From NCBI RefSeq assembly GCF_000380505.1, contig NZ_AQYH01000006.1, positions 248,001-312,000 on the forward strand: a DNA stretch of 64,000 nucleotides, given 5' to 3'. This stretch comes from Kaistia granuli DSM 23481 (GTDB lineage: Bacteria; Pseudomonadota; Alphaproteobacteria; Rhizobiales; Kaistiaceae). Within the stretch, counting starts at the first letter, position 1. Every line of letters starts with the position of its first letter. Under the pieces are notes generated by a model. It searched no databases, was not told the origin of the DNA, and saw only the letters and a program-made list of their open reading frames with translations. Shown here piece by piece: positions 34,230-44,012 of this stretch. The position numbers were made by a program, and so were the translations under genes.

Positions 34230-34442
34230 TCAGCACGCAGATTTCGCGGCGCGGAAGACGTCGCCGGAACCGTCGGCCGCCTTCGCGTGCGGGACGCATT
34301 CCGGCTGCGATTCCAGCGCGACATAGACGAGGTGCGCGTTCGCCCCGAGCAGGAACACGACGCCGACCGCCGCGATGGCGACCGAGATCCACTTCCAGTT
34401 CAACGGCCGCCCGCGCCCGGGCATCGATCGCGTGAGGCTCAT
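34230..34442 (-). CDS. Small single-pass membrane protein, in the usual position of ccoH
   Basis: A 70-residue protein with one membrane helix (ISVAIAAVGVVFLLGANAHLV) followed by a short outer tail with two Cys (SQPECVPH and a C-terminal AKSAC). The ATG overlaps the ccoP stop by four bases, so it is translated with ccoP. CcoH/FixH proteins are about 150 residues and occupy this position elsewhere; this one is too short to be a full CcoH. It may be a reduced form or an unrelated factor. Confidence 0.75.
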   Translation of the reverse strand: MSLTRSMPGRGRPLNWKWISVAIAAVGVVFLLGANAHLVYVALESQPECVPHAKAADGSGDVFRAAKSAC

Positions 34443-35320
34443 TTTGCCGCTCCATCGAGCGATTGCACATAGAGCGCGAGCACCTTGACGTCGATCGGCG
34501 TCAGGCGATCCTTCCAGTGCGGCATGTGGCCCTGACGACCGCCATAGACGGTGTTGAAGACCGACTGCGTATCACTGCCATAGATCCATTTCGCATCGGT
34601 CAGGTCCGGCGCGCCGACCTCGACATTGCCCTTGCCGGTGTCGCCATGGCAGGCGACGCAATTGGCGGCGAACACCTCGCGCCCGGCCTCGATGCGCCCG
34701 GCATTGTCGCCGGTGGCAGCCTCTGCCCCGGACAGCGAGCGCACATAGGCCACGACGTCGTTGATCTGCTTGCGATCGAGCACGCCGTCGCGACCGAACG
34801 CCATCATCTGCGAGACCCTTGTATCCGGGTGTCCCGAATTGATGCCGAACTCGATCGTCTGGGTGATCTGCTCGGGCGAACCGCCCCAGAGCCAGGCCTT
34901 GGCGGTGAGATCCGGGAAGCCCGGTCCGCCCTTGGCGTCGACGCCGTGGCAGACGGCGCAATTGTCGGCGAACAGGGTCCGGCCGGTCTCGCGGACCGAA
35001 CGCATCAGCCCCTCATCCGCCTGGATCGCCGGGAAGTCCATCGACGCGACCTTGTCGGTCCAGGCGGCGCGCTCGAGCGTTGCGTCGCTGACGGCGCTCG
35101 CCACCACCTGACGGTCGTCGAAGCCGAGCAGACCCTTGGTATAGGTCACGCCGAGCGGCCAGGCCGGCATCAGCACCCAGTAGACGACCGAGAAGAGGAT
35201 CGTGACAAAGAGGAAGAACAGGACCACGCGCGGCACGGGCGTATCGAGTTCCTCGATGCCGTTCCACTCATGTCCGGTCGTCGTCTTGCCGGTAACGGGA
35301 TCGCGCTTGCCTATTTCCAC
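34439..35320 (-). CDS. ccoP: cbb3 cytochrome oxidase dihaem subunit CcoP
   Basis: A 293-residue membrane-anchored dihaem cytochrome c that passes electrons to CcoO. One helix near residues 33-50, then two haem sites, C121-A-V-C-H125 and C221-V-A-C-H225, with candidate Met ligands in SQMMAFG and QGHMPHW. Start GTG 35320 overlaps the ccoQ stop by ten bases. Motif HEWNGIEELDTPVPRV is the usual CcoP N-terminus. Confidence 0.96.
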   Translation of the reverse strand: MEIGKRDPVTGKTTTGHEWNGIEELDTPVPRVVLFFLFVTILFSVVYWVLMPAWPLGVTYTKGLLGFDDRQVVASAVSDATLERAAWTDKVASMDFPAIQADEGLMRSVRETGRTLFADNCAVCHGVDAKGGPGFPDLTAKAWLWGGSPEQITQTIEFGINSGHPDTRVSQMMAFGRDGVLDRKQINDVVAYVRSLSGAEAATGDNAGRIEAGREVFAANCVACHGDTGKGNVEVGAPDLTDAKWIYGSDTQSVFNTVYGGRQGHMPHWKDRLTPIDVKVLALYVQSLDGAAK

Positions 35321-35481
35321 GGCTTGTCGTCCTTGTCGAGAATGCTCTCCTTGGCCCGGTCGAAGCGTTTCTTGTTCCTGGGGCAGAAGGTGTATGCCAG
35401 CACGCCGATGGCGAGCGCGATCAGGTAGAACAGCCCCCAACTCTTCGAGAAGGCGACCACGGTTCCATAATCGAGGTCCAT
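35311..35481 (-). CDS. ccoQ: cbb3 oxidase small subunit CcoQ
   Basis: A 56-residue single-helix protein (FYLIALAIGVLAYTFCPRNK) of the CcoQ/FixQ family that stabilises the oxidase. It starts four bases after the ccoO stop and overlaps ccoP by ten bases. Confidence 0.95.
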   Translation of the reverse strand: MDLDYGTVVAFSKSWGLFYLIALAIGVLAYTFCPRNKKRFDRAKESILDKDDKPWK

Positions 35482-35485
35482 CGCA

Positions 35486-36217
35486 TCACTCCTTTGCCGC
35501 GACAGCCGGCGCCGTGGCGACGTCCGTCAGCTTGCCCAGGATCTGCAGGTAGGCGACCAGCGCATCCATTTCCGTCACCCGGGACGGATCGCCGTCGAAG
35601 GCGCGGATATTGGTCGCCTCGCCGTAGCGCTCGCTCACGCCGGCAGCCCGGTCGGTGTCCGGCGTCGCCTGGCCGTAGGCGTCGGCCGGGGCGTTGTCGA
35701 TCATCGCCTGCGTGTAGGGGACGCCGACCCGACGCATCGCCAGGAGGTGATCGCCGAGATCCTCGGTCTTGAGCGTGTTGTCCTCGAGCCAGCGATAGGC
35801 CGGCATGACCGACACCGGCACGACATCGCGGGGATTGCGCAGATGCGCGACCTGCCAGGCGTCCGAATACTTGCCGCCGACGCGGGCGAGATCCGGGCCG
35901 GTCCGCTTCGAGCCCCACAGCATCGGATGGTCGTACTGGGATTCGACCGCCAGCGAGTACGGGCCGTAGCGCTCGACCTCGTCCCGCAGCGTCCGGATCA
36001 TCTGCGAATGGCAGGCATAGCAACCCTCGCGGAGGTAGATGTTGCGGCCGGCCAGCTCGAGCGGCGTGTAGACCCGCATGTCGGGCGCCTTCTCGACCGT
36101 CTCGTCGATCGTGAAGAGCGGCGCGATCTCGACGAAACCACCGATCGAGGCGACCACGATGATGGCCAGAACGAAGCCGATGGCGCTGCGTTCGAGCTTG
36201 CGATGAAAGTTCGGCAT
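35486..36217 (-). CDS. ccoO: cbb3 cytochrome oxidase monohaem subunit CcoO
   Basis: A 243-residue membrane-anchored cytochrome c. One N-terminal helix (FVLAIIVVASIGGFVEIAPL), then the haem motif C66-Y-A-C-H70 followed by SQMIRTLRDEVERYGPYSLA, an invariant CcoO stretch. Receives electrons from CcoP and feeds CcoN. It begins six bases after ccoN. Confidence 0.97.
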   Translation of the reverse strand: MPNFHRKLERSAIGFVLAIIVVASIGGFVEIAPLFTIDETVEKAPDMRVYTPLELAGRNIYLREGCYACHSQMIRTLRDEVERYGPYSLAVESQYDHPMLWGSKRTGPDLARVGGKYSDAWQVAHLRNPRDVVPVSVMPAYRWLEDNTLKTEDLGDHLLAMRRVGVPYTQAMIDNAPADAYGQATPDTDRAAGVSERYGEATNIRAFDGDPSRVTEMDALVAYLQILGKLTDVATAPAVAAKE

Positions 36218-36223
36218 GGTCGG

Positions 36224-37882
36224 CTACTCTCCGGCCTGAAGTGCGGTTGAGGTCGCAAGCGCCGGTTCGTCCACCTCACTGCCCTCGGCGGCGAGGCTGG
36301 TTCCGGGCTGCCGGATCGTCATCCAGATATTGTAGCAACCGACCATCGCGCCGAGCAGGAACAGGAGCCCACCCAGAGTCCGCGCGATGTAATAGGGATG
36401 CATCGCTACCAGCGAGTCGATGAACGAGTAGGCGAGCGTTCCGCTTTCATTGTAGGTGCGCCACATCAGGCCCTGGATGATGCCCGAGTTCCACATCGCG
36501 AAGACGTAGACGACGGTTCCGGAGAGCGCCAACCAGAAGTGGACCTCGACGAGACGGGACGAATACATGCGCTCGCGCTTCCACATCCACGGCACCAGCG
36601 CGTAGATCGAACCGAAGGAGATCATCGCCACCCAGCCGAGCGCGCCGGCATGGACGTGACCGACGGTCCAGTCGGTATAGTGGCTGAGCGAATTGACCGC
36701 CCGGATCGCCATGAACGAACCTTCGAAGGTCGAGAGGCCGTAGAAGACAGCGGCGACCATCATGAAGCGCAGCGTGGCGTCGTCGCGAACCTTGTGCCAG
36801 GCGCCGTTCAGCGTCGCCAGCGCATTGCCGGCGGAGGCCCAGGACGGCACCAGCAGGACGACCGAGAAGGTCATGCCGAGCGTCTGCACCCATTGCGGCA
36901 GCGCCGTGTAGTGCAGGTGGTGCGAGCCCGCCCACATGTACATGAAGACGATGCCCCAGAAGCTGATGATCGACAGCCGGTAGGAGAAGATCGGGCGTCC
37001 GGCGCGCTTCGGCAGGTAGTAGTACATCATGCCGAGGAAGCCGGCGGTCAGGAAGAAGGCGACGGCGTTATGGCCGTACCACCACTGCGTCATCGCATCC
37101 TGGACGCCGGAGAACAGCGAATAGCTCTTGGCGCTGCCGAAGGAGACGGGCACGGCCAGGTTGTTAACGATATGCAGGATCGCCACGACCAGGATGAAGG
37201 CCATGTAGTACCAGTTGGCGACATAGATGTGCGGTTCCTTCCGCCGCGCCAGGGTACGGATATAGATCAGGAAGTAGACCACCCAGACGATGACCAGCCA
37301 GATGTCGGCATACCATTCCGGCTCGGCATATTCCTTCGACTGGGTGAGCCCCATGAAGTAGCCGCTCACTGCAAGAACGCAGAAGAGGTTGTAGCCGAGC
37401 AGCACGAACCAGGGGCTGAACTGATCGGGGAGCCGCGCGCGGGTCGTGCGCTGCAGCACATGCAGCGAGGTCGCGATGAGCGCGTTGCCGCCGAAGCCGA
37501 AGATGACGCTGGTGGTGTGAACCGGGCGGATACGTCCGAAGCTGGACCAGGCCGCGTCGAAGGTCAGATCGGGCCAGGCGAGCAGCGCCGCGACCCAGAC
37601 GCCGAAGAACAGGCCGAAGACGGCCCAGGCCATGGCCAGGATGATGCCGACCTTGGTGGGATCGTCATAATATCGGGACAGACGCTCCTTGTCGGGTTCG
37701 GGCGCGTAGTAGCCCGCCATCACCACGAACATCAGCCCGACGGCGGACAACAGGATGACGAAGCCGTGCGTACCGATCGGATCGTTACGCCCTGCGGCGG
37801 CAAATGCCAGGCCGCATAGGGCCAGCACGGTCAAGACGGCAAGCGAAAGCTGCCGCTCCAGTTTCGTCAATCCCGCAATCAT
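36224..37882 (-). CDS. ccoN: cbb3 cytochrome oxidase catalytic subunit CcoN
   Basis: A 552-residue haem-copper oxidase subunit I of the C family with about twelve membrane helices. Haem and copper ligands are visible: His in HTTSVIFGFGGNAL, WWYGHNAVAFFLT (CuB and cross-linked Tyr region), GSHHLHYTALP, and the pair in TVGHVHAGALGW. It reduces oxygen at very low concentration and pumps protons. First gene of the operon; a FixK/FNR-type box lies about 100 bases upstream. Confidence 0.98.
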   Translation of the reverse strand: MIAGLTKLERQLSLAVLTVLALCGLAFAAAGRNDPIGTHGFVILLSAVGLMFVVMAGYYAPEPDKERLSRYYDDPTKVGIILAMAWAVFGLFFGVWVAALLAWPDLTFDAAWSSFGRIRPVHTTSVIFGFGGNALIATSLHVLQRTTRARLPDQFSPWFVLLGYNLFCVLAVSGYFMGLTQSKEYAEPEWYADIWLVIVWVVYFLIYIRTLARRKEPHIYVANWYYMAFILVVAILHIVNNLAVPVSFGSAKSYSLFSGVQDAMTQWWYGHNAVAFFLTAGFLGMMYYYLPKRAGRPIFSYRLSIISFWGIVFMYMWAGSHHLHYTALPQWVQTLGMTFSVVLLVPSWASAGNALATLNGAWHKVRDDATLRFMMVAAVFYGLSTFEGSFMAIRAVNSLSHYTDWTVGHVHAGALGWVAMISFGSIYALVPWMWKRERMYSSRLVEVHFWLALSGTVVYVFAMWNSGIIQGLMWRTYNESGTLAYSFIDSLVAMHPYYIARTLGGLLFLLGAMVGCYNIWMTIRQPGTSLAAEGSEVDEPALATSTALQAGE

Positions 37883-37976: not shown

Positions 37977-37990
37977 TTGTTCTAGATCAA
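37977..37990 (-). promoter_or_regulatory. FixK/FNR-type box (anaerobox) upstream of ccoN
   Basis: TTGTT-CTAG-ATCAA matches the consensus TTGAT-N4-ATCAA with one change. It is centred 101 bases before the ccoN ATG in the gap after the Crp/Fnr regulator gene, the position where FixK or FNR activates cbb3 genes at low oxygen. Confidence 0.8.
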
Positions 37991-38058: not shown

Positions 38059-38763
38059 TCAGGTCGAGGCGGCGCGCCCCTCGGCGAGCGACTGCAGCCT
38101 GCCGGCTTCGACGACCGTGACCCGCTGCCTGCCGCTCTTGACGAGGCCCTTCGCTTCCCAGGCCGCCAGCAGGCGGCTGACCGTATGCAGGGTCGTGCCG
38201 GTCATCTCGGCGATATCCTGCCGGGAAATCGGAAAGTCGATCTCGACCCCCTCCCCGGTCTTGCGGCCGTTCTGCTCGGCCAGGCGCAGCACGACGCGGG
38301 CCACCCGCTGCTCGACCTGCTCGGTCGACATCTCGACGAGGCGGGCCTGCACGTCCTGCAGGCGGCTGCCGACGGTCTGGTAGGTCGTCTCGCCAAAGCC
38401 GGGGATCTGGGCCATGAATTCCGGCCACATCGCGCTGGGCCAGGCGAGGACGACGCAATCGACCGCCGCGACGGCGCTGGCGGGATAGGTGGTTCTCCCC
38501 ATCGCGTGGGCGATGCCGATGAGCTCGCCGGCGCTGATGTAACGGACAATCACCTGGTCACCGCCGGGCGTGGTCTTGACCACGCGGACATGCCCGTCGA
38601 GCAGCAGGAAGAACGAATGTCCCTCGGCTTCCTCCTCGAAGATGGTGGTGTCCTTGGCGACCCGCAGCGAGCGGGCGCTCGACAGGACGCGATCGAGATC
38701 CTCCGGCTTCGCCGTCCGGAACAGCGGCAGGCCGGCGATGAGAGAACGATCAAGCTGGCTCAC
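38059..38763 (-). CDS. nnrR: Crp/Fnr-family regulator, probably NnrR-like
   Basis: A 234-residue regulator with an N-terminal cyclic-nucleotide-binding-like beta barrel and a C-terminal winged helix (ISRQDIAEMTGTTLHTVSRL, about residues 175-195). It lacks the Cys cluster of FNR and so is not an iron-sulphur oxygen sensor. The recognition helix has H-T-V-S-R where FNR has E-T-I-S-R, consistent with a different half-site. Two TTTGCG-type boxes in front of pseudoazurin and nirK make an NnrR-like nitric oxide response role likely. Start GTG 38763 has GGGAGG four bases upstream. Confidence 0.7.
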   Translation of the reverse strand: MSQLDRSLIAGLPLFRTAKPEDLDRVLSSARSLRVAKDTTIFEEEAEGHSFFLLLDGHVRVVKTTPGGDQVIVRYISAGELIGIAHAMGRTTYPASAVAAVDCVVLAWPSAMWPEFMAQIPGFGETTYQTVGSRLQDVQARLVEMSTEQVEQRVARVVLRLAEQNGRKTGEGVEIDFPISRQDIAEMTGTTLHTVSRLLAAWEAKGLVKSGRQRVTVVEAGRLQSLAEGRAAST

Positions 38764-38901: not shown

Positions 38902-38917
38902 TTTGCGCCAGCGCAAA
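38902..38917 (+). promoter_or_regulatory. NnrR-type palindrome before pseudoazurin gene
   Basis: Perfect inverted repeat TTTGCG-CCAG-CGCAAA, matching the TTGCG-N4-CGCAA form described for NnrR in alphaproteobacteria. TATAAG at 38939-38944 would be a -10 box, putting the palindrome about 41 bases before the start of transcription, the usual activator position. Confidence 0.75.
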
Positions 38918-38987: not shown

Positions 38988-39437
38988 ATGATGATACGGA
39001 TAGCGGTGGTCGCGATGGCACTGGCGGCGCTCGTGACGACGGGAGCCGCGCAGGCAGCGGACCACGAGGTCAAGATGCTCAACAAGGGCGCCAAGGGGGC
39101 CATGGTATTCGAGCCCGATTTCATCCAGGCCTCCGTAGGCGACACCGTGACGTTCCTGCCGACCGACAAGTCGCACGATGCCGAATCCGTCAAGGGCATG
39201 GCGCCGGAGGGGACGCAGCCCTTCAAGGGCAAGATCAGCGAGAAGGTCACCGTCACGATTGATGCCGAGGGCGTCTATGGCGTGAAATGCACGCCGCACT
39301 ACGGCATGGGCATGGTCGCGCTGATCGTGGCCGGCAATCCGGTCAATCTGGACGCGGCCAAGAACGTGAAGCATCCGGGCAAGGCCAAGAAGGCCTTCGA
39401 AGCGCTGCTGACCCAGGCCGCCGCCGGCGCTCAGTAA
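38988..39437 (+). CDS. paz: Pseudoazurin
   Basis: A 149-residue periplasmic blue copper protein, signal peptide cleaved near AQA|AD. Type 1 copper ligands His63 (DKSHDAES), Cys101, His104 and Met109 (CTPHYGMGM) are all present. It donates electrons to copper nitrite reductase. A spacing-optimal GAAGGAAAAG precedes the ATG. It heads the paz-nnrS-nirK block under its own NnrR-type box. Confidence 0.96.
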   Translation: MMIRIAVVAMALAALVTTGAAQAADHEVKMLNKGAKGAMVFEPDFIQASVGDTVTFLPTDKSHDAESVKGMAPEGTQPFKGKISEKVTVTIDAEGVYGVKCTPHYGMGMVALIVAGNPVNLDAAKNVKHPGKAKKAFEALLTQAAAGAQ

Positions 39438-39500: not shown

Positions 39501-40685
39501 ATGGCCATCCCCCGCACGCGTCCCGATCGCCTGCCTGCCATCCTCTCCTACGGATTTCGTCCGTTCTTCCTGCTCGGCTCGCTCTATGCGGGCGTGACCA
39601 TCCTGATCTGGCTGCCGCTGCTGCAAGGCCGGCTGGAAACGACCAGCGTCTTCTCCCCCGTCGACTGGCACGTGCACGAGATGCTGTTCGGCTATCTCGC
39701 CGCCGTCCTGACGGGGTTCCTGCTGACGGCGATCCCCAACTGGACCGGCCGCCTGCCGGTGCAAGGATGGCCGCTGCTCGGGCTGGTCCTGCTCTGGCTT
39801 GCCGGGCGGATTGCCGTATTCTGTTCGGCGGACATCGGCTGGATCGCCGCGGCGTTGATCGATTGCGCCTTCCTGCTGGCAGTGGCCGCCGCCGCGGGGA
39901 TCGAGATCATCGCCGGCCGCAACTGGCGCAACCTCAAGGTCCTGATCCCGGTCATCGTGTTCGGCGCGGCGAACATCGCCTACCATGTCGAAGTGCACGC
40001 CCTCGGCACGTCCGACATCGCCCGGCGGCTCGGCATCGGCACCGCCATAGTGCTGATCGCGTTGATTGGCGGCCGCATCATCCCGAGCTTCACCCGCAAC
40101 TGGCTCGCCCGCGAAAATCCGGGCCGCCTGCCGGTGCCGGTCGGCCGTTTCGACATGGCGACCATCGCCATCTCGGCGCTCGCCCTACTGGGCTGGTCCT
40201 TCGCCCCCGACGCCGCAGCGACGGCCATGGCCCTGATCCTCGCCGCCAGCCTCAACACCCTGCGGCTGGCGCGCTGGGCCGGTGACCGTACCTGGCGCGA
40301 TCCGCTCGTGCTGATCCTGCATGTCGCCTACGCCTTCCTGCCGATCGGCATGCTGCTGGCCGCCCTAGCGGTCCTGGCGCCCGACGCGGTCGGCCCGGCC
40401 GCAGCCGTGCATGCCTTCGGGGTCGGCGCCATCGGCACGATGACGCTGGCCGTCATGGTACGCGCCACGCTCGGCCATACGGGCCAACCTTTGCAGGCGG
40501 GAAAGGCCGGCTGCTTCGTGTTCGCAGCCATTCTCATCGCCGCCTGCGCGCGCATCGCCGCCGCGCTGGGCCTGCCGGGCGGCTGGCTCCTCGATCTCGC
40601 CGCCGGAGCCTGGACAGCCGGCTTCCTCGGCTTCGCCCTGCTCTACGGAGCCATGCTGCTGCAGCCGCGCCTGCGCCGCGGCTAG
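39501..40685 (+). CDS. nnrS: NnrS haem-copper membrane protein
   Basis: A 394-residue protein with about twelve membrane helices. The conserved SYGFRPFFLLGSLYA, VDWHVHEMLFGYL and LTAIPNWTGRLP stretches identify NnrS, which contains haem and copper and helps cells cope with nitric oxide during denitrification. It starts 63 bases after pseudoazurin and probably shares its transcript. Confidence 0.95.
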   Translation: MAIPRTRPDRLPAILSYGFRPFFLLGSLYAGVTILIWLPLLQGRLETTSVFSPVDWHVHEMLFGYLAAVLTGFLLTAIPNWTGRLPVQGWPLLGLVLLWLAGRIAVFCSADIGWIAAALIDCAFLLAVAAAAGIEIIAGRNWRNLKVLIPVIVFGAANIAYHVEVHALGTSDIARRLGIGTAIVLIALIGGRIIPSFTRNWLARENPGRLPVPVGRFDMATIAISALALLGWSFAPDAAATAMALILAASLNTLRLARWAGDRTWRDPLVLILHVAYAFLPIGMLLAALAVLAPDAVGPAAAVHAFGVGAIGTMTLAVMVRATLGHTGQPLQAGKAGCFVFAAILIAACARIAAALGLPGGWLLDLAAGAWTAGFLGFALLYGAMLLQPRLRRG

Positions 40686-40707: not shown

Positions 40708-40723
40708 TTTGCGTTGCAGCAAA
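40708..40723 (+). promoter_or_regulatory. NnrR-type palindrome before nirK
   Basis: TTTGCG-TTGC-AGCAAA, extended to the perfect outer arms CTTTGC / GCAAAG (40707-40724). It is centred 75 bases before the nirK ATG, almost the same spacing as the box before pseudoazurin (79 bases). Confidence 0.75.
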
Positions 40724-40789: not shown

Positions 40790-42349
40790 ATGCTCAGAAA
40801 GACCCAAACGCGTCCCGGCGGAGGACGCGATACTCATCCGGATGGCCCCCTACCTTTAACCGCGTGGCTGCAGAAGGGCAGGCTCCTCGCCGCCGCCGTC
40901 GCCCTGCTGTCGAGCCTTGCCCTGACGCCGGCCTTCGCCCAGTCGCACCAGCACGGCCAGACGGCGCCGAATGCCCCCGCCGCGCAAGCAGAGCCGGCCA
41001 AGCCGGCGATCGAACCGGCCGCGACGGACGTCAAGACGGCAGCATCCGCGCCGATCGTCAGCTACCACGCCCCGATGACCTTCACCCTGAAGACGGGCAT
41101 CGCCACCGGGCGCATGGTCTATATCGGCGTCGGTGGCACCATCGACGGCAAGATCAACCCGACGCTGATGGTGCATGAGGGCGAACTCATCCAGATCAAC
41201 CTGATCAATGGCGAGGGCGCGGAACATGACGTCGTCGTCGACCAATATCCGGCGCGCTCCGCCGTGGTGGTCGGCAAGAACGCCTCCACGACGATTTCCT
41301 TCCTGGCGAGCAAGGTCGGCGAATTCGCCTATTTCTGCTCGATCGCCGGACATCGCCAGGCTGGCATGGAAGGCCTGATCCAGGTCATGGCAGGCCCGCG
41401 CGAGGCGATGGCGAGCGACGCCGCCGACGTCGTACGCGATCCGGCCGACCTGCCGGGTCCGATCGGCCAGCGGCCACCCAAGGTGGTCAAGGTCGACCTC
41501 GAGACGGTCGAGCTGGTGGGACGTCTCGACGACGGCACGACCTATACCTACTGGACCTTCAATTCGAAGGTGCCGGGCCCGTTCCTGCGCGTGCGGGTCG
41601 GCGACACGGTCGAGGTGCACGTCAAGAACCCCGCCGACAGCGTCATGGCCCATTCGGTCGATTTCCATGCCGCGACCGGTCCCGGCGGCGGCGCCCACAC
41701 GACCCAGACCGACCCGGGCGCCGAAACCGTCGTGACGTTCAAGGCGCTGAAGCCGGGCATCTTCGTCTATCACTGCGCCACGCCGAGCGTCGCCCACCAC
41801 ATCACCAGCGGCATGTACGGCCTGATCCTCGTCGAGCCGGAGGGCGGACTGCCGCAGGTCGACCGCGAGTTCTACGTGATGCAGGGCGAGCTCTACACCG
41901 TCGAGCCGTTCGGTACGAACGGCGTGCAGGAGATGGACTATGACAAGCTGATCTCCGAGCGGCCGGAATACTTCCTGTTCAACGGCGCCGTCGGCTCGCT
42001 GACCAAGACCCATCCGCTCTATGCCAATGTCGGCGAGACGGTGCGCATCTTCTTCGGCGTCGGCGGACCGAACTTCACGTCCTCCTTCCACGTCATCGGC
42101 GAGATCTTCGACAACGTCTATTCCATGGGCAGCGTCACCTCCCCGCCGATCACGGGCGTGCAGACGGTCACCGTTGCCCCGGGCGGCGCGACGATCGTCG
42201 ACTTCAAGCTCGATCGCGGCGGCAACTACGTGCTCGTCGACCACGCCCTGTCCCGCGCCGAGCGGGGCCTCGCCGGCCACCTGATCGTAGACGGTCCGGA
42301 AAACGACGCGATCATGCATGCGGGCCCGGCCGACGCCCCCGCGGAGTAA
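40790..42349 (+). CDS. nirK: Three-domain copper nitrite reductase NirK with extra N-terminal cupredoxin
   Basis: A 519-residue periplasmic enzyme reducing nitrite to nitric oxide; ordinary NirK has about 360-380. After a long signal region (hydrophobic LLAAAVALLSSLAL, cleavage near AFA|Q) and a Pro/Ala linker comes a separate cupredoxin domain (about 95-200) with its own type 1 copper ligands His146, Cys183, His188, Met193. The catalytic part (about 230-505) has type 1 ligands His288, Cys329, His337, Met342; type 2 ligands His293, His328, His434; and catalytic Asp291 and His408. The spacing C-ATPSVAH-H is that of class II NirK. The layout matches the Hyphomicrobium denitrificans type. Confidence 0.95.
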   Translation: MLRKTQTRPGGGRDTHPDGPLPLTAWLQKGRLLAAAVALLSSLALTPAFAQSHQHGQTAPNAPAAQAEPAKPAIEPAATDVKTAASAPIVSYHAPMTFTLKTGIATGRMVYIGVGGTIDGKINPTLMVHEGELIQINLINGEGAEHDVVVDQYPARSAVVVGKNASTTISFLASKVGEFAYFCSIAGHRQAGMEGLIQVMAGPREAMASDAADVVRDPADLPGPIGQRPPKVVKVDLETVELVGRLDDGTTYTYWTFNSKVPGPFLRVRVGDTVEVHVKNPADSVMAHSVDFHAATGPGGGAHTTQTDPGAETVVTFKALKPGIFVYHCATPSVAHHITSGMYGLILVEPEGGLPQVDREFYVMQGELYTVEPFGTNGVQEMDYDKLISERPEYFLFNGAVGSLTKTHPLYANVGETVRIFFGVGGPNFTSSFHVIGEIFDNVYSMGSVTSPPITGVQTVTVAPGGATIVDFKLDRGGNYVLVDHALSRAERGLAGHLIVDGPENDAIMHAGPADAPAE

Positions 42350-42388: not shown

Positions 42389-42856
42389 TCAGCTACCCAG
42401 TACTTCCGGGCGCTGCGCAGCCAACTGGCGACGCAGCACCTTGATCGTTTCGAAGCGTTCCGTGACATCCCGCATCACCGCGGCCATACCTGTGACCCCG
42501 CCCTCGCCGTCACGCAGCAGAACAATCGTGAACTCGACCGAGATCCGCCGCCCGTCGGCGGCGAGCGCCGGCACGGCGAGGAGATCGCCCGCGACATAGC
42601 GGCTCTGCCCGGTCCGCATCACGGTGTCGTAGCCCTGCCAGTGCCGGGCGCGCTGGTTTTCCGGGATGATCAGGTCGAGCGACTGGCCGACAGCCTCGGC
42701 CGCGTCGAAGCCGAAAATGCGGGCGGCGCCCGGGTTCCAGAAGGTGATCCGCCCTTCCCGATCGGTCGCAACGATGGCATCGGCGATGCTGTCGAGCAGC
42801 GCCCCGGCCAGGGCCGAGCGCAAGGTATCCGGCGCCTCCAGCGTTTCAGGGTTCAC
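42389..42856 (-). CDS. Small PAS-domain sensor protein
   Basis: A 155-residue protein that is almost only one PAS domain (about residues 12-135: DSIADAIVATDREGRITFWN, GRRISVEFTIVLLRDGEGGV, MAAVMRDVTER) with a short helical tail and no output domain. Start GTG 42856 has GGAGG nine bases upstream and overlaps the end of metB by eleven bases. Small PAS proteins next to nirK may sense redox or ligand state; the partner is not identifiable here. Confidence 0.85.
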   Translation of the reverse strand: MNPETLEAPDTLRSALAGALLDSIADAIVATDREGRITFWNPGAARIFGFDAAEAVGQSLDLIIPENQRARHWQGYDTVMRTGQSRYVAGDLLAVPALAADGRRISVEFTIVLLRDGEGGVTGMAAVMRDVTERFETIKVLRRQLAAQRPEVLGS

Positions 42857-44012
42857 GATCGGCAGCCTCCAGTGCCTGTTGCAGATCATCGAGCAGGTCC
42901 TGTTCGCCCTCGAGACCGATCGAGAGCCGCATCAACGTATCCTTGATGCCGGCGGCATGCCGCGCCTCCGGCCCCATGCCGGCATGGGTCATGGTAGCCG
43001 GATGGGCGGCGAGGCTTTCCATGCCGCCGAGCGATTCCGCCAGCGTGAAGATCCGGAGCGCCTCGGCAAAACGCCGGACCTCTCCCATGCCACCCTCGAT
43101 CTCGAAGCTCAGCATCGCACCAAAACCGTCCTGCTGGCGCCGCGCCAGCTCGTGGCCCGGATGCTTGGGCAGGCCCGGAAAATGGACGCGGGCGACGCGG
43201 GGATGCGCGTCCAAGAATTGCGCGACCGCCATCGCATTCCGCTGCTGCCGCTCAAGCCGCGGGAACAGCGTCCGCAGGCCGCGCAGCGTCTGGTAGGAAT
43301 CGAAGGGCGCTCCGGTGACGCCGGTGATGTTCGCCCACTCGGCGAGCTCTTCCAGACGCGCCGCCGACGCGGCGACCACGGCACCACCGACCATGTCGGA
43401 ATGGCCGTTCAGATATTTGGTCGTCGAGTGGATGACGAAATCGGCGCCGAGGCCGATCGGCCGCTGCACGGCCGGCGACAGGAAGGTGTTGTCGACCGCG
43501 ACCGCGGCGCTGATCGTCCGGGCACGACGAACGATCCCGGCGATGTCGACGACCCGCATCAGCGGATTGCTCGGCGTCTCCACCAGCACCAGCATCGGCA
43601 TACGCTCGAAGGCGAGATCGAGCGCGCGCGGATCGGTCTGGTCGACGAAAGCTACCTTGAACTGACGCTTGGTCGCCCGGCGCTGCAGCAGGCGGAACGT
43701 GCCGCCATAGCAATCATGCGGCGCCAGCACGAGGTCGTCGGGCTCCAGACGGGAGAGCACCAGATCAACGGCGGCCATGCCGCTCGATGTGATCACCGCG
43801 CCGGCGCCGCCTTCGAGCTTCGCCAGCGTGTCGGCGAGCTGGTCGCGGGTCGGGTTGCGGGTGCGGGAGTATTCATAGTCCCCGGGCTGCTCGAAGCCGC
43901 GGAACCGATAGGCGCTGGAGAGGTAGAGCGGGGGAACCACCGCACCGAAGGCGGCATCCTGGCCGATGCCATTGGCGGCGGCGATGGTCTCAGGCGATTT
44001 GCAGTCGGTCAT
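42846..44012 (-). CDS. metB: Cystathionine gamma-synthase
   Basis: A 388-residue PLP-dependent trans-sulphuration enzyme, close in length and sequence to E. coli MetB (386). Motifs YSRTRNPTRD, LVAP-like LAPHDCYGGTF, VDNTFLSPA, the PLP-Lys in STTKYLNGHSDMVGG, and TLAESLGGMESL are visible. It joins an activated homoserine with cysteine to give cystathionine in methionine synthesis, although cystathionine lyase activity is possible in this family. ATG 44012 matches the E. coli start; ATG 44036 is an alternative. Divergent from the following LysR gene. Confidence 0.9.
   Translation of the reverse strand: MTDCKSPETIAAANGIGQDAAFGAVVPPLYLSSAYRFRGFEQPGDYEYSRTRNPTRDQLADTLAKLEGGAGAVITSSGMAAVDLVLSRLEPDDLVLAPHDCYGGTFRLLQRRATKRQFKVAFVDQTDPRALDLAFERMPMLVLVETPSNPLMRVVDIAGIVRRARTISAAVAVDNTFLSPAVQRPIGLGADFVIHSTTKYLNGHSDMVGGAVVAASAARLEELAEWANITGVTGAPFDSYQTLRGLRTLFPRLERQQRNAMAVAQFLDAHPRVARVHFPGLPKHPGHELARRQQDGFGAMLSFEIEGGMGEVRRFAEALRIFTLAESLGGMESLAAHPATMTHAGMGPEARHAAGIKDTLMRLSIGLEGEQDLLDDLQQALEAADREP

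Follow-up and report, generated by a model that had tools for sequence, protein, structure and literature searches.

The window analysed here, a 64,000-nucleotide stretch of Kaistia granuli DSM 23481, contains on its forward strand a reading frame, nirK (40790..42349), which the frame itself together with profile and structure–sequence matches identifies as a three-domain copper nitrite reductase of 519 amino acids. The frame has no internal stops, and a GGAG ends 6 nt 5′ of its ATG. The product begins with a probable Sec signal peptide (residues 1–50, 40790..40939), recognised by eye from its AFA/Q site, lacking a twin arginine and coinciding with a helix at residues 24–45 in the structure model, followed by a peptide that alignments show to be fast-evolving (residues 51–94, 40940..41071) and that ends near His93. 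A cupredoxin domain placed by Pfam, alignment and model (domain I, residues 95–200, 41072..41389) carries a type 1 copper site, T1Cu-N (His146/Cys183/His188/Met193), and is joined by a linker, whose boundaries are approximate and come from alignments (residues 201–216, 41390..41437), to the catalytic NirK core (residues 217–515, 41438..42334), delimited by TIGR02376 and alignments and holding the type 1 and type 2 copper ligands, Asp291 and His434. An antisense open reading frame (40856-42319) was taken to be a high-GC shadow of nirK.

The fusion of an extra cupredoxin to a full NirK, proposed in an initial annotation of this DNA, is real. Residues 119–188 match Pfam Cupredoxin_1 (35.7 bits against a cut-off of 27), the protein scores 349.4 bits with the NCBIfam model of copper nitrite reductases, TIGR02376 (cut-off 296.3; best stretch 212–512), and phmmer aligns residues 68–514 to PDB ID 6tfd (784 bits) and 82–514 to PDB ID 2dv6 (771 bits), covering the N-terminal domain in both cases. 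These two structures are from Hyphomicrobium denitrificans, whose layout the annotation had recognised; domain order is shared, the proteins are colinear across all three domains, and identity is 74–75% with the extra domain counted. Kaistia NirK falls in a clade with 9 other members (support 100/93), and the search for the fused architecture that had been advised finds it in all nine as well as in the two solved structures. As nine of nine clade relatives carry the same fused frame, the joining of two genes by a sequencing error, which had been raised as a danger to the annotation, is not credible, and an assembly or sequencing artefact can be dismissed with near certainty. Kaistia NirK is confirmed as an ordinary representative of a class already known from two crystal structures.

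Two complete sets of type 1 ligands had been claimed, and alignment confirms them: the T1Cu-N ligands and those of the core (His288/Cys329/His337/Met342) are all present, and along with the type 2 ligands (His293/His328/His485) and the catalytic aspartate Asp291, likewise claimed, they are invariant in the 20 fused proteins aligned. The assignment of the catalytic histidine to His408, however, was wrong. We classed by motif 78 proteins, the window's and those of 77 of 81 related loci (L072, L077, L078 and L079, with cut or broken frames, were left out beforehand), and the position of His408 is occupied by H in 31, by K in 31 and by another residue in 16, whereas that of His434, in the sequence SSFHV, is H in 78 of 78. 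This motif is described as the location of the active-site His (PMC4770552), and His434 is the counterpart of His368, given as the catalytic histidine of the 1NES1 enzyme in PMC7201279. Residue counterparts follow the phmmer alignment, where Kaistia NirK and 6tfd are offset by 66; His27, Thr36 and Glu76 of 6tfd correspond to His93, Thr102 and Glu142.

That domain I folds as a cupredoxin, a point the annotation had left to structure prediction, is supported by homology to 2dv6 and 6tfd, and the predicted structure (from an alignment of 20 rows; mean pLDDT 68) shows seven strands between residues 96 and 200, with block pLDDT there of 36–89 and weak stretches inside the domain (105–120). The placement of domain I against the core in the model is unreliable (rmsd 18 Å) and was therefore not used. 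Compared with 8 relatives, domain I has 80–93% amino acid identity against 46–79% at fourfold sites, and the core 83–100% against 52–87%; amino acid identity thus lies above fourfold-site identity, and both parts are under purifying selection. Towards Kaistia adipata, divergence is concentrated in residues 1–90, that is, in the signal and flexible peptide. Because the core matches that of K. adipata exactly over 303 columns while the aligned whole is 90% identical, we considered whether domain I had been exchanged recently, but this was ruled out: domain I is 93% identical, and fourfold-site identities of 79% and 87% show no sharp difference. Among the 25 proteins with a cupredoxin–core layout, His146 is conserved in all 25, and it lies outside the motif by which they were classed, into which the Cys, His and Met ligands are built. 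The Glu142 position is acidic (E or D) in 24 of the 25, and G or N in 9/9 of the proteins in which a cupredoxin with Asp for its copper Cys precedes a haem domain; His93 is present in 9 of the 25 (the window's and L003–L008, L021 and L053).

The genes ahead of nirK are arranged as a divergent Crp/Fnr-family regulator (38059..38763, reverse strand; profile matches), a pseudoazurin gene (38988..39437, forward; TIGR02375, 167.2 bits against a cut-off of 109.85) and, between it and nirK, nnrS (39501..40685, forward; PF05940, 366.8 bits). The separate pseudoazurin 1.8 kb away had been noted correctly: its gene begins 1.80 kb before nirK does, and it is the single copy in the genome. The cluster is adjoined by the cbb3 oxidase genes ccoNOP (34439-37882, reverse; profile matches), an order that Kaistia adipata and K. 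terrae share. Directly downstream of nirK lies a gene for a PAS-domain protein (42389-42889, reverse), a 64% identical match to which occurs within 0.6 kb of an unfused nirK in Azospirillum agricola (L057).

Matches to the Fnr/Nnr-like consensus TTGN8CAA stand, all on the forward strand, 5′ of nirK (TTGCGTTGCAGCAA, 40709..40722), 5′ of the pseudoazurin gene (TTGCGCCAGCGCAA, 38903..38916) and upstream of ccoN (TTGTTCTAGATCAA, 37977-37990). These are 3 of 7 such boxes in the whole window, all of them consensus matches only, against 5.8 expected by chance; with a count so close to chance, the argument is their position and not their number. Pseudoazurin and nnrS lie upstream, with a Crp-like gene divergent, in six of the nine clade relatives (L003 and L021 from Kaistia, L004 from Aminobacter, L005 from Camelimonas, L006 from Nitratireductor and L053 from Mesorhizobium), and pseudoazurin and nirK stand together in 7 of 10 clade members, window counted. 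Boxes of the form TTGCG...CAA precede pseudoazurin, by 71–87 nt, in all 7 loci that have it (the window again counted), and precede nirK in 7 of the 10 clade loci, the stretches scanned in L005, L008 and L009 containing none. Pseudoazurin was not found in the locus DNA examined near the fused nirK of L007, L008 and L009, and therefore it is not always a linked donor.

This linkage, and the boxes before both genes, suggest that pseudoazurin and nirK share one program rather than forming condition-specific routes. The annotation had proposed that two electron routes, one through the tethered domain and one through free pseudoazurin, might compete or operate under different conditions, and it is true that both carriers are encoded and that no linked pseudoazurin accompanies the fusion in L007, L008 and L009; linkage in 7 of 10 clade members and the similar boxes point instead to joint expression, and we consider separate competing routes quite improbable. 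The coexistence of pseudoazurin with a fused NirK is itself not new, since H. denitrificans is also described as carrying pseudoazurin/cupredoxin genes (PMC12423496).

What else pseudoazurin might serve can be judged partly from the genome. NapA is over its cut-off (1576.5 bits), while in the same genome no NarG exceeds its own, nor does any NosZ with TIGR04244, the sole NosZ model applied. Four PF00115 matches comprise the window's CcoN, two aa3-type oxidases and one weak match outside the NCBIfam families; no NO reductase was seen among them in a search run without a NorB-positive control genome. A second NirK match in the genome (28%, residues 228–356) is a multicopper oxidase-like protein. 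The genome is possibly that of a partial denitrifier, with NapA and NirK present. Given one pseudoazurin, NapA, and no NarG or NosZ over cut-off, the pseudoazurin could plausibly serve NirK, and the adjoining cbb3 oxidase is another candidate. Cytochrome c550 is the donor of the H. denitrificans enzyme, which fits an arrangement where a c-type cytochrome would feed NirK and pseudoazurin would serve another enzyme such as this oxidase. In the window the ccoNOP genes adjoin the cluster, and in L003, L004, L005 and L021 they fall inside the locus; cupredoxins are described as able to serve cytochrome oxidases (PMC12423496). However, pseudoazurin keeps its place by nnrS and nirK where the cco genes are on the other side (L004, L005) and also in L006, where cco genes were not found in the locus DNA examined; we regard this arrangement as unlikely.

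Of 297 genomes from the order, that of the window counted, 187 give some match, and among the matches listed two extend into the N-terminal domain, namely the window's and one from genome G261, of the same family. The latter lies in a 692-codon open frame at locus L090, which encodes a haem–cupredoxin–NirK protein (L090:5465-7528), a four-domain layout with a cytochrome c domain preceding the cupredoxin; close relatives of the window's organism are thus set apart by an entire redox domain. The six further Kaistia genomes in this sample give weak matches at most (best E 1.3e-17), and the fused nirK is therefore patchy in the genus sample.

Published work on enzymes of the HdNiR class is split over what the extra domain does, with electron entry, assembly and substrate anchoring all proposed (PMC7201279, PMC4770552, PMC9358711). 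The class is described as a hexamer of two trimers whose N-terminal domains meet head to head, in both solved cases with about 24 Å between T1Cu-N and the core type 1 copper (PMC7201279). In favour of electron entry, the same source reports from pulse radiolysis that the electron reaches T1Cu-N first and that an enzyme without the core type 1 copper retains significant activity, and it proposes a tunnelling path along a strand via Glu76 and Thr36. The built-in electron entry domain of the initial annotation can rely on the first two of these results, but the 24 Å distance and a T1Cu-N mutant reported as more active than wild type, in a paper that terms the function of the domain unknown (PMC4770552), count against it; with the evidence so divided it is one of several readings and not a fact. 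These same two observations favour a mainly structural domain I, which would assemble the hexamer and bring the peptide bearing His93 to the active site; the copper of domain I would then lie off the physiological electron path, and pseudoazurin or a cytochrome c would feed the core type 1 copper directly. His27 is reported to anchor nitrite in the 1NES1 enzyme (PMC7201279), cores stripped of the N-terminal domain are described as trimers, and the long Cu–Cu distances of the full protein as consistent with a hexamer (PMC9358711). A structural role is harder to reconcile with the early reduction of T1Cu-N and with His146 in 25 of 25 cupredoxin–core proteins, and we lean slightly against it as the main function while giving it serious weight.

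We consider it probable that Kaistia NirK is a pseudoazurin-fed hexamer of the HdNiR class in which domain I serves both assembly and electron relay, the whole being expressed as one program. By analogy with the two solved orthologues, the protein would form a dimer of trimers via its N-terminal domains, and nitrite would bind, assisted by His93, at the type 2 copper between subunits and be converted to NO. Electrons would most likely pass from the adjoining pseudoazurin to the core type 1 copper. Domain I, with its own copper, would contribute to assembly and serve as a further relay without replacing the external donor, and pseudoazurin and tethered domain would work in a single program that the neighbouring Crp/Fnr regulator probably governs.

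Further evidence on the role of the tether comes from Chloroflexi. The hexameric Hyphomicrobium enzyme has been placed in NirK clade 1e, described as rich in Chloroflexi (PMC10999283), and Kaistia NirK is 54–70% identical, over the best segment, to proteins from Chloroflexi loci L011-L042 and others. Beside the 25 cupredoxin–core proteins, the 78 comprise 24 without a recognised extra domain, one haem–cupredoxin–core protein, nine in which a Cys>Asp cupredoxin precedes a haem domain and the core (L028, L030–L034, L036, L037 and L040), eight, plus L016 (where an overlapping second motif match was dropped), in which it precedes a second cupredoxin and the core, and five haem–core proteins, of which L044 is spurious, its CxxCH lying upstream of the likely start. 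Tethered domains were scanned with Pfam in L090, L030, L019 and L012, and all other domain classes are motif matches; the Chloroflexi haem domains are thus CxxCH motifs, with Pfam checked for one such protein, L030, whose haem domain reaches 21.4 bits against 21.3 at one cut-off and stays under another, and whose outer cupredoxin is under its cut-off. In the long N-termini of L014, L017 and L029, no outer cupredoxin came up in the motif search. Five of the 78, from Acidobacteriota (L061, L063–L066), have a C-terminal extension of NirK of 281–286 residues without CxxCH or type 1 motif.

All 18 Cys>Asp cupredoxins are from Chloroflexi (L012, L013, L015, L016, L019, L023, L028, L030–L034, L036, L037, L040, L041, L070 and L076) and form one group (support 100/93) in a tree leaving out L044 and L080–L082, with the nine of the haem proteins nested inside it at 95/92. 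In each of them Asp replaces the copper Cys, the search having permitted Asp or Glu and having the following His and Met as part of its motif; the first-ligand His is found in 14 of 18 by a script pattern and in 18 of 18 by eye. With His, His and Met kept, they resemble the engineered C112D azurin, and these natural variants may bind copper in another way. As cupredoxins retained without a normal type 1 site, they speak for a mainly structural domain; the swap of copper for haem next to the core speaks against it. Behind one orthologous outer domain, the slot adjacent to the core holds either copper or haem, which favours an electron-carrier role for this slot and is our best evolutionary argument. 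The cupredoxin–cytochrome–NirK form was earlier described from a few identical MAGs and suspected of being an assembly artefact (PMC8756737); we find it on nine non-identical contigs from different Chloroflexi MAGs, in addition to four haem–core forms. One may tentatively picture an interchangeable relay slot filled by copper (Kaistia, Hyphomicrobium and many Chloroflexi) or by c-type haem (other Chloroflexi), with the Cys>Asp outer domain as a scaffold or altered copper site; in Kaistia and its kin, co-expressed pseudoazurin would then supply the slot in series and not as a competitor. Counting against this idea, the core tree (without L080–L082, and with L044 not counted as haem) does not place the haem forms as sisters of the double-cupredoxin forms, plain cupredoxin–core proteins standing between them, though several forks are weak; a minimum of 6 changes between copper, haem and neither is required, and hence more than one gain or loss. 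On balance we find the interchangeable slot possible but rather doubtful.

Taken by itself, Kaistia NirK adds one more protein to a class with two crystal structures, and its possible importance lies in the role of the N-terminal copper domain, a question common to the whole class. The conserved pseudoazurin–NirK pair in culturable Kaistia offers natural variants for direct tests of electron entry, and the copper-or-haem alternatives of Chloroflexi offer a further set. Several known enzymes allow comparison. Those of Ralstonia pickettii and Pseudoalteromonas haloplanktis (cytochrome c) and Thermus scotoductus (cupredoxin) have, like Kaistia NirK, one tethered redox domain, but are described as trimers with a C-terminal tether whose site lies 10–14 Å from the core type 1 copper (PMC7201279). 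The haem–cupredoxin–CuNiR of Bradyrhizobium sp. ORS 375 has a core (PDB ID: 6the) 65% identical to that of Kaistia and, going by the title of 6the and by PMC7775769, likewise has a cupredoxin before it, but bears an extra c-type haem domain that Kaistia NirK lacks: no CxxCH haem motif occurs in its 519 residues, and it is L090 that shares the four-domain layout. The cupredoxin–cytochrome–NirK proteins of Chloroflexi (PMC8756737) resemble Kaistia NirK in their N-terminal tethers and related core, and differ in that haem replaces the live cupredoxin and the outer cupredoxin has Asp for Cys. Closest are the H. denitrificans enzymes (PDB IDs: 6tfd; 2dv6), with the same three domains, order and ligands; the Kaistia sequence differs from theirs, and the His27 of HdNiR and its Glu76/Thr36 bridge have their counterparts in His93, Glu142 and Thr102.
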